From the NCBI GenBank assembly GCA_016189025.1, contig JACPGS010000024.1:1-47829 (forward strand): 47,829 nucleotides of DNA. The letters run 5' to 3'. This stretch comes from Candidatus Magasanikiibacteriota bacterium (GTDB lineage Bacteria; Patescibacteriota; Patescibacteriia; Magasanikbacterales; GWA2-37-8). The notes beneath the pieces are model-generated. The model ran no database searches and was not told the DNA's origin. It saw only the letters and a list, made by a program, of their open reading frames with translations. Positions 14,378-47,829 of the stretch are shown here, piece by piece. The translations under genes were made by a program, and so were the position numbers. Position 1 is the first letter of the stretch. Each line of letters begins with the position of its first letter.

Positions 14378-14564
14378 TGAAACTGTAGAAAAATGACGGC
14401 AGGCTGTTATTTACTGGTCGCTTTCGCTATTGCTGTAACCCACCTGGTTGGTCGCGGCAGACACTCTTTGGGTGCTCCCCCGATTTAATCGGGGTGCGCG
14501 CCCAAAGACACTCGTCTGCCGCGCCCTGATGCTAACTGGTTTTTCCAATTTTTCTATAGTTTTT
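14378..14564 (+). repeat. interspersed repeat family 1, copy C
   Basis: tgaaactgtagaa...ttctatagttttt; same internal stem. Confidence 0.8.
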
Positions 14565-28631: not shown

Positions 28632-29030
28632 ATGCACACCAAACTAAAAGGCGACATCGGAGAATTAGTAGTTGCTGTTAAACTTTTGCAAGATGGTTGG
28701 CACGTCGCTTTTCCGTATGGAGAAAATTTAAAGTATGATTTGGTTGTTGAAAAGCAAGGCATCATGAAACGGGTTCAGGTAAAATCCGTATTCCCTAAAA
28801 ACGGAGTTTTACATGTTAATTGTCGGTCTTCAAACAATTGGTCCGTTATTCATTACCAACCAGAAGATTTTGAAATATTAGCGACAGTTGATTTAGAATC
28901 AAAAGAAGTGTATTTTATCCCATCTAAGCAAATCAGTAAAACATTGATTGACTTGAGATTAATACCTACGAAGAATAAACAGAAAAGTAAAATTAATTAC
29001 GCTGAAGATTTTAAAACAATGCCGTTGTAG
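28632..29030 (+). CDS. PD-(D/E)XK endonuclease (homing-endonuclease-like, PDDEXK_5/I-Ssp6803I-like)
   Basis: KGDIGELVVAVKLLQDGWHVAFPYGENLKYDLVVEKQGIMKRVQVKS; D-x(n)-QxK motif. Confidence 0.7.
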   Translation: MHTKLKGDIGELVVAVKLLQDGWHVAFPYGENLKYDLVVEKQGIMKRVQVKSVFPKNGVLHVNCRSSNNWSVIHYQPEDFEILATVDLESKEVYFIPSKQISKTLIDLRLIPTKNKQKSKINYAEDFKTMPL

Positions 29031-30288: not shown

Positions 30289-30359
30289 GGGCGCGTCGTA
30301 TAATGGTAGTACTACGGTCTCCAAAACCGTATGCGTAGGTTCGATTCCTACCGCGCCTG
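30289..30359 (+). tRNA. tRNA-Trp(CCA)
   Basis: GGGCGCG/CGCGCCT acceptor, CTCCAAA anticodon loop. Confidence 0.93.
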
Positions 30360-30366
30360 CAACGCA

Positions 30367-30396
30367 AAACCAGGTTGCCCTCGGCCTGGTTTTTTG
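30367..30396 (+). terminator. tRNA-Trp terminator, copy 1 of a repeated terminator
   Basis: AACCAGGTTGCCCTCGGCCTGGTTTTTTGTT. Confidence 0.9.
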
Positions 30397-30437
30397 TTTA
30401 GACCAGATTCCTTTAGTCCTAAGGTGGCCGACAGCGG

Positions 30438-30466
30438 TTGACAGTAGTGGTCATGTTAGATATAGT
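30438..30466 (+). promoter_or_regulatory. sigma70-type promoter for the mntA-hepT-like operon
   Basis: TTGACA - 17 nt - TATAGT. Confidence 0.8.
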
Positions 30467-30484
30467 AAAGATATCAGTTTTGTT

Positions 30485-30910
30485 ATGGCCATCGCTATTC
30501 CCCAAAAAATACAACAGGAGTTAGTTGACCTCGGCGTAGTGGCGCTGTACTTGTTTGGTTCGCGTGCCCAGGGGGTGGCCGGGCCTTTGGCCGACTATGA
30601 TTTTGGCGTTTTGCTTGACGATCCGCTACGGGTACAGCGCAGCTCGTTTGAGCTGTACGGCAAGTTGTATGAGATATTGTCCAAGGTGACGCATCCGGAA
30701 ACACTAGAGGCGGATGTGATTGATATCGTATTCTTAGACAGTCCGCGCGTTTCTCTTGAGCTTAAATTTAATATTATCCGTCACGGCCGCGTTCTCTTTG
30801 ACAGTAATCCGCGGCGTCGGGTGGACGCGGAGGAGCGCATTATGGAAGCATATTGTGATTTTCGTCCGCTCTTGAAGATGTTTGACCAGGCAGTTTTAGC
30901 CCGTCTGTAA
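30485..30910 (+). CDS. mntA: MNT-domain nucleotidyltransferase antitoxin (MntA-like)
   Basis: GSRAQGVAGPLADYD = GSX10DXD motif; upstream of HEPN gene. Confidence 0.88.
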   Translation: MAIAIPQKIQQELVDLGVVALYLFGSRAQGVAGPLADYDFGVLLDDPLRVQRSSFELYGKLYEILSKVTHPETLEADVIDIVFLDSPRVSLELKFNIIRHGRVLFDSNPRRRVDAEERIMEAYCDFRPLLKMFDQAVLARL

Positions 30911-30917
30911 GCCAAAT

Positions 30918-31379
30918 ATGCCAATCCTTCCTCTCTTGCGTGAAGCAGTCATTCCCCGCCTGGATGGCATACTCAAGGATATTAAGAAGCTGCGCGAACT
31001 GCACCGGCGCGGTCCGGAGGAATTTGTAAAAAAAGAAGACACCTTTGCGCTAGCCCAGCACCATCTGCGGCTTGCTTTAGAGGGAGTATTTCATATCGGA
31101 GCGCACGTGCTGTCGCGACTGGAAGGAGGCCGCGCTCGCGAATATGCGGAACTGGCGGTACGCTTAGGCGAACTGGGCGTCGTTCCCAAAGAATTTGCCG
31201 AAAGTAAACTGGTGCCGATGGCCAAAATGCGCAATCTGTTGACTCATTTTTATGCGGAAGTGGAGGCCGGGCGCCTGTATGATGTTTTAGCGAAGGACAT
31301 TGATGATATTGAAATATTTTTGCAGGCGATCAAGCATTTATTTGAGCACCCCGATCGCTTGGGATTGGCGGTAGAGTAA
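30918..31379 (+). CDS. hepT: HEPN-domain (DUF86-like) toxin (HepT-like)
   Basis: RNLLTHFY = RX4HXY motif; 7 nt after MNT gene. Confidence 0.88.
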   Translation: MPILPLLREAVIPRLDGILKDIKKLRELHRRGPEEFVKKEDTFALAQHHLRLALEGVFHIGAHVLSRLEGGRAREYAELAVRLGELGVVPKEFAESKLVPMAKMRNLLTHFYAEVEAGRLYDVLAKDIDDIEIFLQAIKHLFEHPDRLGLAVE

Positions 31380-31396
31380 ACCCCGCACTACTTGCT

Positions 31397-31433
31397 AACC
31401 AGGTTGCCCCCGGCCTGGTTTTTTGTTATGCTT
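31397..31433 (+). terminator. repeated terminator copy 2
   Basis: AACCAGGTTGCCCCCGGCCTGGTTTTTTGTTATGCT. Confidence 0.9.
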
Positions 31434-31441
31434 AGGGCGTT

Positions 31442-32155
31442 ATGCATGAAGAAGAAATTCACCAAGCCGCTATAGAATTTGCCAGGCGAAATAAAAAGCG
31501 CATTGCCCAAGAATTAACTAATCCGGCAATATATATGCCGGATGGAATCCCGATTTCAGTTTTTATGGCCGGGTCGCCGGGCGCGGGGAAGACGGAATTT
31601 TCTAAAGTGCTCATTGGCATTTTGGAGAAAAGCAGAGACCATCGCATTATTCGCATTGATGGTGACGAGATTAGAGGCTTGATTCCCGGTTATACAGGTG
31701 ATAATTCGCATTTGTTTCAAAGCGCCGTATCGCTCATAGTGGAAAAAATTCATGATTGCGTTTTGGAACAACGGCAAACTTTTGTACTCGACGGCACCTT
31801 TGCCAAATATGATAAAGCTGCCGATAATATCCGGCGTTCACTTGGTAAAGGTCGCAAGGTGTTTATTTTTTATCTCTACCAAAAGCCAGAAATTGCTTGG
31901 AAATTCACTGAAGCGCGCGAAGAAGCTGAAGGGAGACATATCCCCAAGGAAGCGTTTATTGAGCAATTCTTTGGTGCCATTGATACAGTTAGGGAAACCA
32001 GGAAAGAGTTTAGTACGGATGTCGTTATATTTTTTGTAAAGAAAGATTTTATGCAGAATACCGTTGAATTGGTTGAAATAGAGCCAAACGGCAGGGGGCT
32101 TGACGATTATTTGGAGGCGGATTATACTAAAGAAAGATTAGAGAATATTCTATGA
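31442..32155 (+). CDS. zeta-toxin-like P-loop kinase
   Basis: VFMAGSPGAGKTEFSK Walker A, RIDGDEIRGLIPGY, TFVLDGTFAKY. Confidence 0.85.
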   Translation: MHEEEIHQAAIEFARRNKKRIAQELTNPAIYMPDGIPISVFMAGSPGAGKTEFSKVLIGILEKSRDHRIIRIDGDEIRGLIPGYTGDNSHLFQSAVSLIVEKIHDCVLEQRQTFVLDGTFAKYDKAADNIRRSLGKGRKVFIFYLYQKPEIAWKFTEAREEAEGRHIPKEAFIEQFFGAIDTVRETRKEFSTDVVIFFVKKDFMQNTVELVEIEPNGRGLDDYLEADYTKERLENIL

Positions 32156-32340
32156 GGAAGCTACTACAAATTTTTAGAAAACGTCCGGTTACAGCACAAA
32201 CTAGTCATTTTTCTGATTTCTTTTTGCATGCTTCTGATGAGCAAAAAAGGAAAGTTTTTACCGAAGCTGCCAAGCGCGCCAACGAAGAGCAAATGGAAGT
32301 GTTTAAAAAACTGCATTTGAAGCTAGAAACGAACGGATAA
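32152..32340 (+). CDS. small partner protein (62 aa) overlapping the zeta-like kinase by 4 nt
   Basis: ATGA overlap; MRKLLQIFRKRPVTAQTSHFSDFFLHASDEQKRKVFTEAAKRANEEQMEVFKKLHLKLETNG. Confidence 0.65.
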   Translation: MRKLLQIFRKRPVTAQTSHFSDFFLHASDEQKRKVFTEAAKRANEEQMEVFKKLHLKLETNG

Positions 32341-32356
32341 ATTTTGCTGTATTTTA

Positions 32357-32393
32357 AACCAGGTTGCCCCCGGCCTGGTTTTTTGTTATGCTG
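32357..32393 (+). terminator. repeated terminator copy 3
   Basis: same 36-nt string as copy 2. Confidence 0.9.
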
Positions 32394-32442
32394 GCAGCAG
32401 CCGCGATGTTAAGAGTCAAGCAAAACTTACCAGAAATAATCT

Positions 32443-33549
32443 ATGCCCGAGCCAAGTCCTTATCTTGAATCTGCCGCCAGAGACAAAGAAAAATATAAAT
32501 ACGTAACCAATCCCAATTCCTTTCGCGCGGAAGATGTTTTCCGTGCTCGTTTTGTGGAGGTTGAAAAAGCAGTGAAAAATAATCCGGAAAAGCGCGGCGT
32601 GGCCACGGCAATTCTCGCCGCCTGTTATCTGGCATTTGGGTCGGAACGAGTTGACCTCAAAAGATTAGGGCCGGATGCGCTGCCTCCCCGTTTGAATGGT
32701 TATTTGGTAGCATATAATGACGAGGTTGATATTGCGGAAAAAATTAAGGACACCGACCCGGAAGTGTATCAGCTGATTATGAATCACGTTAAAAAATATC
32801 AGGAAAAATTTGAGCAGTATTTTGAGCCGACCGGCGATGCCGAAGAAGACGGGCGCCGGCAAAAATTTAAAAAGTTTTATGATGTGGCATTTAAAGAAGT
32901 TGACGCGACAGAACGCGAGCTTTTTACCGTTAAAAAGCCAGAGGGAGCAGGTGCTGCGGACAATGATATTCTGGCCGGGGAAATTGAGCGTATCCAAAAA
33001 GGACGAGAGCTGGTAAATGCCATAGAAATACTGATGAATATTCGCGCTTGCGTAGAAGAAGATATTTTTTCCGATCGGGGGATTGATGAGGCGGGCGCGC
33101 GGGATATTGCCGGATTGGCGCAAAAATACGATTGGTTGATTAATTCTGATTACGAGGATAAAGAGCTGACAGAAGATGAGAGAAAAGCGCGGATGCTGTT
33201 TTTTGCTACGATGTCTAATCAAGCGGCATTAGACGAAATAGATTTTCAGGAAGACCGTTGCTTTGAGATTTGGAAGAAAATGACTTACCTGACGGAAGTA
33301 AAAAAGGTGCCGCCTAAAGAAGCGGCACGAATTGTTCAAGAAGACGCGGCGCGCTATGCTGCGCTCGCCGCTAAATCTGGCATGTCGCCGGTGCCATTGT
33401 GGTTTGCCAATAAAGGTGCCCGTGCTCTTTCGCACGTCAAAAATATATGGCGCGGTTTTATTGCCGGCCGCGCCGAGCGCCACGGCCATATCCGGGAAAA
33501 GGCGGTGGCGATGCTTCAGAAAAAGCACCCAGGAAAGTATAAAATGTAA
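32443..33549 (+). CDS. orphan helical hypothetical protein (368 aa)
   Basis: ORF; no family recognised; 3 nt before next gene. Confidence 0.6.
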   Translation: MPEPSPYLESAARDKEKYKYVTNPNSFRAEDVFRARFVEVEKAVKNNPEKRGVATAILAACYLAFGSERVDLKRLGPDALPPRLNGYLVAYNDEVDIAEKIKDTDPEVYQLIMNHVKKYQEKFEQYFEPTGDAEEDGRRQKFKKFYDVAFKEVDATERELFTVKKPEGAGAADNDILAGEIERIQKGRELVNAIEILMNIRACVEEDIFSDRGIDEAGARDIAGLAQKYDWLINSDYEDKELTEDERKARMLFFATMSNQAALDEIDFQEDRCFEIWKKMTYLTEVKKVPPKEAARIVQEDAARYAALAAKSGMSPVPLWFANKGARALSHVKNIWRGFIAGRAERHGHIREKAVAMLQKKHPGKYKM

Positions 33550-33552
33550 GCT

Positions 33553-34110
33553 ATGATTAGAAAAAAATTATCTCCTGATCAAATAATTACCCTCAACGAT
33601 TATCCACTGCACAGCGAGCAGGTTTTGAAGTTGTATCATCGGATGTTTTGGCAAGGAGCAGACGGCCTGGTTCCGCCGTGTCCGGTTGTCCATAAATCCT
33701 CCGGCTCGCTATTTATCCGGGGGCGGGGGAAGAAGATAGAGGAGTACAATAAATTGCTAGCAAAATTTTTCCAGTCGCACCCCAAGGCCGAGTATTTTAT
33801 AGTTGACGGAAGCCATAAAACTACGGCGGCGGCTTTATGCGGTAAGCGTATCACGGTAATGGTATTTCAATCGGCAACCGATATACAGGAAGCCAGGCGG
33901 CTGGTAAAAAAAGGAAAAATTTTTAGTCTAACGGCGGGCGGCAATTCTATCCCCGAAGTAGTCAGGACCTTGCGGCAACATTTTTTCAAAACCAGGCGCT
34001 TTGAGACCGTCGCCGAGAAAACTACGCGGCTGGTGAAGGAAAAGAAGGTGCCGAGATATATGATTGGGGTTTATAAGAAATCATCTCCAGTATTTGACAA
34101 GCCAGCCTGA
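33553..34110 (+). CDS. ParB/sulfiredoxin-like domain protein
   Basis: YFIVDGSHKTTAAALCGKRITVMVF resembles ParB-type DGxHR..A motif. Confidence 0.6.
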   Translation: MIRKKLSPDQIITLNDYPLHSEQVLKLYHRMFWQGADGLVPPCPVVHKSSGSLFIRGRGKKIEEYNKLLAKFFQSHPKAEYFIVDGSHKTTAAALCGKRITVMVFQSATDIQEARRLVKKGKIFSLTAGGNSIPEVVRTLRQHFFKTRRFETVAEKTTRLVKEKKVPRYMIGVYKKSSPVFDKPA

Positions 34111-34206: not shown

Positions 34207-34407
34207 ATGAAAGGCACTATTAAACGCTTGGTAGCCGAGAAAAACTTCGGTTTCATCGGGCCGGAAGACGGCAGTCAGGATATTTTTTTCCATGCCACCG
34301 GCCTGCAGGGCGTAGAGTTCCGGGAGCTTAACGTCGGCGATGTGGTAACCTTTGAGGTGGAACAATCCGAAAAAGGTCCGCGCGCCGCGAAAGTTGCCCG
34401 CGGTTAA
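34207..34407 (+). CDS. cold shock domain protein
   Basis: MKGTIKRLVAEKNFGFIGPEDGSQDIFFHATGLQG. Confidence 0.93.
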   Translation: MKGTIKRLVAEKNFGFIGPEDGSQDIFFHATGLQGVEFRELNVGDVVTFEVEQSEKGPRAAKVARG

Positions 34408-34499: not shown

Positions 34500-35804
34500 A
34501 TGACCCAACCCAAATTACCATCAGCGGCAAGTTTTGACACCCTGGGCATTGCCCCTAAGCTCCTCGCGATTTTAGCGGAGCAGCGTTACCGCGCGCCGAC
34601 CCCGATTCAGCACCAGGCCATTCCGCCGGCGCTGGAAGGGAAAGATTTAATCGGCATTGCCCAAACCGGAACCGGCAAAACCCTGGCGTTCGGCGTTCCC
34701 CTTATTCAGCGGCTAGCGCAAATTGGCGGCCAGGGGCTGATAATGCTGCCGACCCGCGAGTTGGCCCTCCAGGTAGAGGAAATGCTGCAGCGCATTGGCC
34801 GGCCGCTCGGCCTGAAGACCGCGGTACTGATCGGCGGCGCTCCGATGCACCGGCAGATTCAGGCGCTGCGCCACACCCCGCACGTCTTGGTGGCAACACC
34901 GGGCCGCCTGGCGGACCACCTGCAGCAAAAAACCGTTTCTCTGCAGCAGGTAAAAGTGGTGGTGCTGGACGAAGCGGACCGAATGCTGGACATTGGATTT
35001 CTCCCGCAAATCAAGCAGATTCTGAATGTTACCCCCCGCGAGCGGCAAACGATGCTGTTTTCGGCAACCATGCCGGCCGAAATTGCCCAGTTAGCCGGCA
35101 GATATATGCGCCTGCCGCTGCGGGTAGAAGTGGCGCCGGCCGGCACCGCCGCGGCCCAGGTGGAGCACGAAGTATTTATGATTGGCAAAGACGCCAAGCT
35201 GCAATTGCTGGAAAAACTACTGGCCGAATACCCGGGGACGATTCTGGTGTTCTCTCGCACCAAGCACGGCGCCAAAAAAATTACCGCGGCGGTGCGCCGC
35301 CTGGGGCACAGCGCGGCGGAGCTGCATTCCAACCGTTCGCTCTCCCAGCGCCGCGCCGCGCTGGACGGCTTCAAATCCGGAGTTTATCGCGTGCTGGTGG
35401 CTACCGACATTGCCGCCCGCGGCATTGACGTGGTCGGCATTTCTCTCGTCATCAATTATGACTTGCCGGATAACTCCGAGGATTACGTTCATCGCATCGG
35501 CCGCACCGGACGCGCTGGCCTTACCGGCAAGGCAATATCGTTTGCCACGCCGGATCAGCGCGGCGACCTTAAAAGCATTGAGCGGCTGATTCGCAAAACC
35601 CTGCCCATTCTGGCGCTGCCGGTATTGCCGCCGCGTTGTTCCCCGCCCCCGGCAGCCTTCAGCGATCAAGCATTCCGCGGGCGCTCGCCGGCCCCTCGGC
35701 ATTCTCGCTGGGGCGGGCGCTCGGGTGGTTTCCCGCGCTCCCGGCCCCGGCGTTCGTCCGGAGGCGGCGGCAGAGGGTGGGGTGGCCGCGGGCGGCGGCG
35801 CTGA
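34500..35804 (+). CDS. DEAD-box RNA helicase (RhlE-like)
   Basis: AQTGTGKT, DEAD, SAT, HRIGRTGR; RGG-like tail. Confidence 0.95.
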   Translation: MTQPKLPSAASFDTLGIAPKLLAILAEQRYRAPTPIQHQAIPPALEGKDLIGIAQTGTGKTLAFGVPLIQRLAQIGGQGLIMLPTRELALQVEEMLQRIGRPLGLKTAVLIGGAPMHRQIQALRHTPHVLVATPGRLADHLQQKTVSLQQVKVVVLDEADRMLDIGFLPQIKQILNVTPRERQTMLFSATMPAEIAQLAGRYMRLPLRVEVAPAGTAAAQVEHEVFMIGKDAKLQLLEKLLAEYPGTILVFSRTKHGAKKITAAVRRLGHSAAELHSNRSLSQRRAALDGFKSGVYRVLVATDIAARGIDVVGISLVINYDLPDNSEDYVHRIGRTGRAGLTGKAISFATPDQRGDLKSIERLIRKTLPILALPVLPPRCSPPPAAFSDQAFRGRSPAPRHSRWGGRSGGFPRSRPRRSSGGGGRGWGGRGRRR

Positions 35805-47675: not shown

Positions 47676-47829
47676 AAATGGCCCGATATGTCCCACGGAC
47701 GTGATAATGTCACCCTTTGAAGGAAGTTAAAATGTCACCCCTATGCTAGAATGATGAGTTACTCTTAACTCATCGCTAGTATGGATACTGACTTTAACTA
47801 CCTTCGTATGACACCACGCGATTTAGAAC
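47676..47829 (+). mobile_element. probable left end of an IS element, truncated by window
   Basis: repeated TGTCCCAC / TGTCACCC / TGTCACCC motifs followed by ORF start MDTDFNYLRMTPRDLE (47781 on). Confidence 0.5.

Follow-up and report, generated by a model that had tools for sequence, protein, structure and literature searches.

Toxin-antitoxin modules bracketed by copies of a tRNA-Trp terminator in a Patescibacteria genome: probable serial insertion with addition of target-end copies

In a 1.22-Mb Magasanikbacteria-like Patescibacteria genome (G000), two unrelated two-gene modules lie 3' of a tRNA-Trp gene and are bordered and separated by copies of the tRNA terminator (T1, T2 and T3), in the order T1, mntA-hepT, T2, zeta kinase-p62 and T3. 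It is probable that the two modules were inserted serially at this site as separate units, and that each event added a copy of the target end, namely, the terminator. The repeats are local, the modules are unrelated to each other, the site is variable among relatives, and local repeats are enriched around HepT and DUF4143 genes. The initial annotation of this DNA had proposed that modules were added singly at a tRNA-linked terminator, and this proposal is supported by the uniqueness of the terminator, the variability of the hotspot and the presence of repeat-bracketed modules elsewhere. Unless a contig is named, coordinates refer to the whole stretch of DNA that was analysed (47,829 nt, hereafter the window), in which the features are as follows.

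30289..30360, + strand: tRNA-Trp(CCA), detected by ARAGORN; the anchor of the hotspot, with the order DUF1189-tRNA-Trp common to many relatives
30368..30398, + strand: terminator copy T1, at the native tRNA-Trp terminator position; a homologous terminator lies 3' of tRNA-Trp in G007
30438..30466, + strand: promoter-like site TTGACA-17-TATAGT ahead of mntA (11/12, a consensus match only)
30485..30910, + strand: mntA, nucleotidyltransferase antitoxin (NCBIfam NF047752 above cut-off; Pfam Polbeta; GSX10DXD)
30918..31379, + strand: hepT, HEPN RNase toxin (NCBIfam NF047751 above cut-off; PF01934; RX4HXY)
31397..31432, + strand: terminator copy T2, matching T3 at all 36 nt (pattern match, hairpin fold)
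31442..32155, + strand: zeta-toxin-like kinase (PF06414, E=1.4e-40; PezT match weak)
32152..32340, + strand: p62, 62-aa kinase partner, overlapping the kinase stop (alignment of ten loci)
32357..32392, + strand: terminator copy T3 (pattern match, hairpin fold)
32443..33549, + strand: p368, no family; its G016 homologue adjoins a large serine recombinase
33553..34110, + strand: p185, no family; a conserved DGSHKTTA stretch, ParB-like by eye only
34207..34407, + strand: cold-shock protein gene (PF00313), just beyond the island
34500..35804, + strand: DEAD helicase, which forms the conserved right border; its distance from tRNA-Trp in relatives is 0.2 to ~5 kb

The sequence AACCAGGTTGCCC(T/C)CGGCCTGGTTTTTTGTT is present as exact copies at 30368-30398, 31397-31427 and 32357-32387, with 0 copies in shuffled sequences. 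This confirms the previously noticed recurrence at three sites, including the starts of the second and third copies (31397 and 32357); the first copy starts at 30368, not at 30367 as had been given. The identity common to T2 and T3 covers exactly 36 nt, through ATGCT, again as described earlier. All three copies fold into a strong 10-16-kcal hairpin followed by a U-run, the intrinsic terminator type. A candidate promoter overlapping the repeat (TTGCCC-17-TATGCT, 8/12) fell below the scan threshold. The GC content of the island interior is 41-51% versus 54-64% in the flanks, in agreement with the AT-richness that had been suspected by eye.

The 31-36-nt terminator is absent elsewhere in the 1.22-Mb genome, where searches with up to three mismatches yielded weak chance-like matches only, and the exact 36-nt string was not found in any of the 57 relatives searched. 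The sole match to a looser pattern among GTDB contigs (G007/CALRIA010000041) is homologous and likewise located 3' of tRNA-Trp; the same pattern had no viral match in IMG/VR. The repeat is thus confined to this locus; a string common throughout the genome, which the initial annotation had named as fatal to its proposal, was not found. Among 478 terminator-like hairpins in this genome, one further nearby same-strand pair was identified, which flanks a DUF4143 gene on contig C7. A dispersed palindromic repeat (~98 bp, ~60 genome copies) that occurs in the window at 14443-14540 and also at 2084, 18093, 38298 and 39343 differs in sequence from the tRNA-Trp terminator, and no REP-associated (Y1) transposase was found in the genome. 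The last 140 bp of the window (47689-47829) are common to the ends of four other contigs and represent a repeat that breaks the assembly.

On the basis of equivalog matches and the motifs found within one operon, MntA and HepT are assigned as a type VII toxin-antitoxin (TA) pair. The zeta-like kinase contains the Walker A motif GSPGAGKT and has the zeta kinase fold; its partner is encoded downstream, unlike the upstream epsilon or PezA antitoxin of epsilon-zeta and PezAT. Although p62 matched no known profile family in Pfam or NCBIfam, a partner of 57-66 aa is encoded directly behind the zeta-like kinase in 10 of the 10 aligned loci of the order (window 32152-32340 and L055-L063), with conserved K, N and DQ positions. 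We regard p62 as a candidate antitoxin whose gene order is reversed relative to epsilon-zeta. The two modules correspond, within a few bases, to those delineated previously. A third two-gene module had also been proposed, but p368 and p185 are not supported as such a unit, because homologues of the two genes occur apart from each other in the order. PADLOC and PHROGs searches yielded weak matches only, and a profile search of the island proteins detected no transposase, integrase or recombinase remnant.

The interval between tRNA-Trp and the DEAD helicase is an accessory hotspot that varies in the family. The gene order is not fixed in relatives; a fixed order in distant relatives was the other outcome that the initial annotation had named as refuting its proposal. 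In the four relatives whose retrieved stretch contained the helicase, its distance from tRNA-Trp is 0.2 kb (G010), 1.4 kb (G019) or ~5 kb (G009 and G012), compared with 4.1 kb here. Relatives were sampled as one genome per species, and the genus of this genome is represented by G000 alone. Another tRNA-linked gene in the window is an AT-rich PD-(D/E)XK nuclease gene (28632-29030), located between tRNA-Thr(TGT) and tRNA-Thr(GGT) and overlapping the latter by a few bases at its end; these two tRNA genes lie almost side by side in G001, G004 and G018.

Large serine recombinases also sit at tRNA-Trp in relatives, directly abutting it in G001, G017 and G023, and one in G016 neighbours a p368 homologue; p368 resembles the cargo of such elements. 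In G000 itself, the reading frames of two large serine recombinases (C34:260-2083 and C2:6137-7801) end inside tRNA-Pro and tRNA-Leu. The island might accordingly be decayed DNA of a serine-recombinase element, with the terminator copies being secondary. The att sites that serine integrases leave, however, are hybrids with a very small core, unlike the 36-nt identical repeats, and no recombinase remnant was seen among the island proteins. This explanation, which also leaves the brackets derived from superoxide dismutase (SOD), methyltransferase and AbiEii gene ends at other loci unaccounted for, appears very unlikely.

The zeta/p62 pair is present in other genomes without the tRNA-Trp terminator. 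In G009, it lies between perfect 43-bp repeats that match the upstream methyltransferase gene at its 3' end. Because the same pair lacks the terminator elsewhere or has a different bracket, the terminator is not a part of the module, and the alternative offered in the initial annotation, that it travels with each module like a cassette, is not supported. The methyltransferase gene end is single-copy and not accompanied by zeta in G018, which belongs to the genus of G009, and in G000; the ancestral downstream genes have been lost at the G009 site, so this is not a clean insertion. In G005, three copies of the SOD 3' end surround an MntA/HepT pair and a second gene, whereas at the G000 SOD site one gene-end copy precedes the SOD terminator and the adjoining gene, with no module. 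The three G005 copies are coding-compatible variants that specify different but plausible C-termini, and look as if units had arrived with gene ends of their own.

As had been suggested as a check, repeats were thus found to flank other defence and TA genes, namely those of HepT, DUF4143 and zeta loci. Contig C2 of G000 contains the array repeat-HepT/MntA-repeat-DUF4143 ATPase-repeat and contig C7 the array repeat-DUF4143 ATPase-repeat, while three repeats surround two DUF4143 genes on contig C10 of G012. Further brackets derive from the uvrA 5' end (G004), the 3' end of an AbiEii gene (G009) and, apparently, by reading, the radA 5' end (G018). The bracket repeats at these other loci are 26-129 bp in length and share no common core by inspection, which argues against a single site-specific recombinase or a transposase of fixed stagger; no dedicated recombinase signature was found. 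In some of the repeats, the exact tracts are only 11-17 nt, which is short for RecA, and these are perhaps decayed repeats. A 139-bp direct repeat (98.6% identical; C31:413-551 and 1812-1950) was also observed in G000. The unit that it brackets lies near a tyrosine recombinase gene and consists of two genes, one deaminase-like and the other methyltransferase-like as judged by eye.

To quantify the association, a gene was scored as bracketed when a direct repeat of ≤200 bp was detected by blastn (E<=1e-6, >=80% identity); in relatives, repeats were assessed at the locus, not genome-wide for dispersed copies. HepT genes were bracketed in 5/8 cases and DUF4143 genes in 9/27, compared with 11/262 control ORFs in relatives and 19/674 in G000. 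For the family including G000, this amounts to 14/35 versus 30/936 (Fisher p=2e-11), with the counts not fully independent between neighbouring modules and sister genomes. Since DUF4143 and HepT were picked after repeats had been seen in G000, the figures outside G000 (9/27 versus 11/262, Fisher p=1e-5) are the fairer test. No detectable repeat accompanied the remaining 21 of the 35 HepT and DUF4143 modules.

These data also bear on two other explanations of the array. Terminator copying or gene conversion after insertion may account for the copies, and the modules could in that case have arrived by unrelated routes, while the terminator was duplicated locally, through gene conversion or template switching, and retained as an insulator. 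Each copy closes a + strand transcription unit, all three hairpins are strong, and T2 equals T3 despite unrelated flanks. However, at other loci the bracketing repeats derive from coding sequence (SOD, methyltransferase, AbiEii, uvrA and probably radA ends), which has no terminator role, and the enrichment tracks the module class, not terminators; we consider such purely local copying quite improbable. The second explanation, that the palindrome of the terminator served as att site for a resident or lost tyrosine recombinase, which acted in trans and left T1-T3 as attL/attR-like scars, as in p-dif systems, is also unlikely, if slightly less so. It is favoured by the presence of three tyrosine recombinases (PF00589) in the genome, by the direct-repeat array layout and by the nature of the repeat, a palindrome of attachment-site size adjoining a tRNA gene. 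Nevertheless, the variable, coreless brackets at other loci do not fit one recombinase, zeta/p62 is bracketed differently in two genomes, the 36 nt contain no dif-like ATAA-N6-TTAT, and the island carries no recombinase gene.

In the serial insertion model that we prefer, mntA-hepT and zeta-p62 would have arrived as separate accessory units immediately 3' of tRNA-Trp, and each insertion would have left behind one more copy of the local target end, which at this locus is the tRNA terminator. A unit in circular form or as transforming DNA, carrying a duplicate of a host gene end, would undergo RecA-mediated homologous recombination with the resident end, and the outcome would be gene-end/module/gene-end, in which the resident gene or terminator remains functional. 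Repeated events would produce stacked repeats with the newest unit nearest the tRNA gene, so that mntA-hepT would have been inserted after zeta-p62, and the direct repeats could also permit looping out of a unit. Such homology-driven integration by units with their own gene-end copy is the most likely, albeit unproven, mechanism; recA and a dprA-like gene are encoded in the genome (motif match only). More tentatively, a still unnamed mobility route may operate family-wide, in which recombinase-less TA and defence units carry their own gene-end or terminator copy, insert harmlessly, stack and loop out.

The recurrence across the family of a defence gene flanked on either side by a local gene end suggests an overlooked route of gene movement. 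The spread of TA and small defence genes that have no transposase is a long-standing puzzle, and the brackets provide a testable footprint: from the copies of the repeat one can read where a unit entered, what the empty site should look like and in which order units arrived. The brackets also hint at how bacteria that depend on a host and have tiny genomes come by these genes. Should the route prove general, scans for locus-specific direct repeats would expose mobile units that are missed by integrase-based island finders.

Several known systems share features with this arrangement. Integrative elements at the 3' ends of tRNA and other genes, such as islands and e14-type prophages, encode an integrase and duplicate and restore the gene end. 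The brackets described here likewise consist of target-bearing direct repeats, with the gene end restored and units stacked at a single site, but the units are single or paired genes without an integrase. In the minimal mobile elements of Neisseria, alternative gene sets are swapped at a fixed chromosomal site by homologous recombination. Different gene sets at a single site are a common feature, whereas those elements use whole flanking genes and show neither a duplicated end nor repeat-separated stacking. The Neisseria elements are mentioned in PMC3388099.

The p-dif (XerC/XerD) modules of Acinetobacter plasmids are small modules, some of them TA, between short repeated sites (PMC6449649). 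All p-dif sites have one Xer consensus of ~28 bp, whereas the repeat here is locus-specific with no dif-like site and the boundaries differ between loci. The array does not conform to an integron cassette array either: of the attC pattern RYYYAAC...GTTRRRY, the bases preceding AAC differ between the copies and GTTATGC misfits GTTRRRY, by reading.

The closest parallel is the insertion with long target duplication described for restriction-modification (R-M) genes (Nobusato et al. 2000, as summarized in PMC3874152, PMC3031569 and PMC1643837). As outlined in these citing papers, that process also involves selfish two-gene defence units without a linked transposase, long and variable direct duplications of a local target, and a single-copy empty site in a relative; the island likewise has local direct repeats (36 nt) and no linked transposase or integrase. 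A single gene-end copy at an unoccupied site in a relative is seen at two loci other than the island, those of SOD (G000) and methyltransferase (G018 and G000). Compared with the R-M cases as portrayed there, the units identified in Patescibacteria are type VII TA, zeta and DUF4143 units, their targets are gene ends and terminators, the copies at the SOD site are coding-compatible variants, and the modules form serial arrays of three repeats and two modules.
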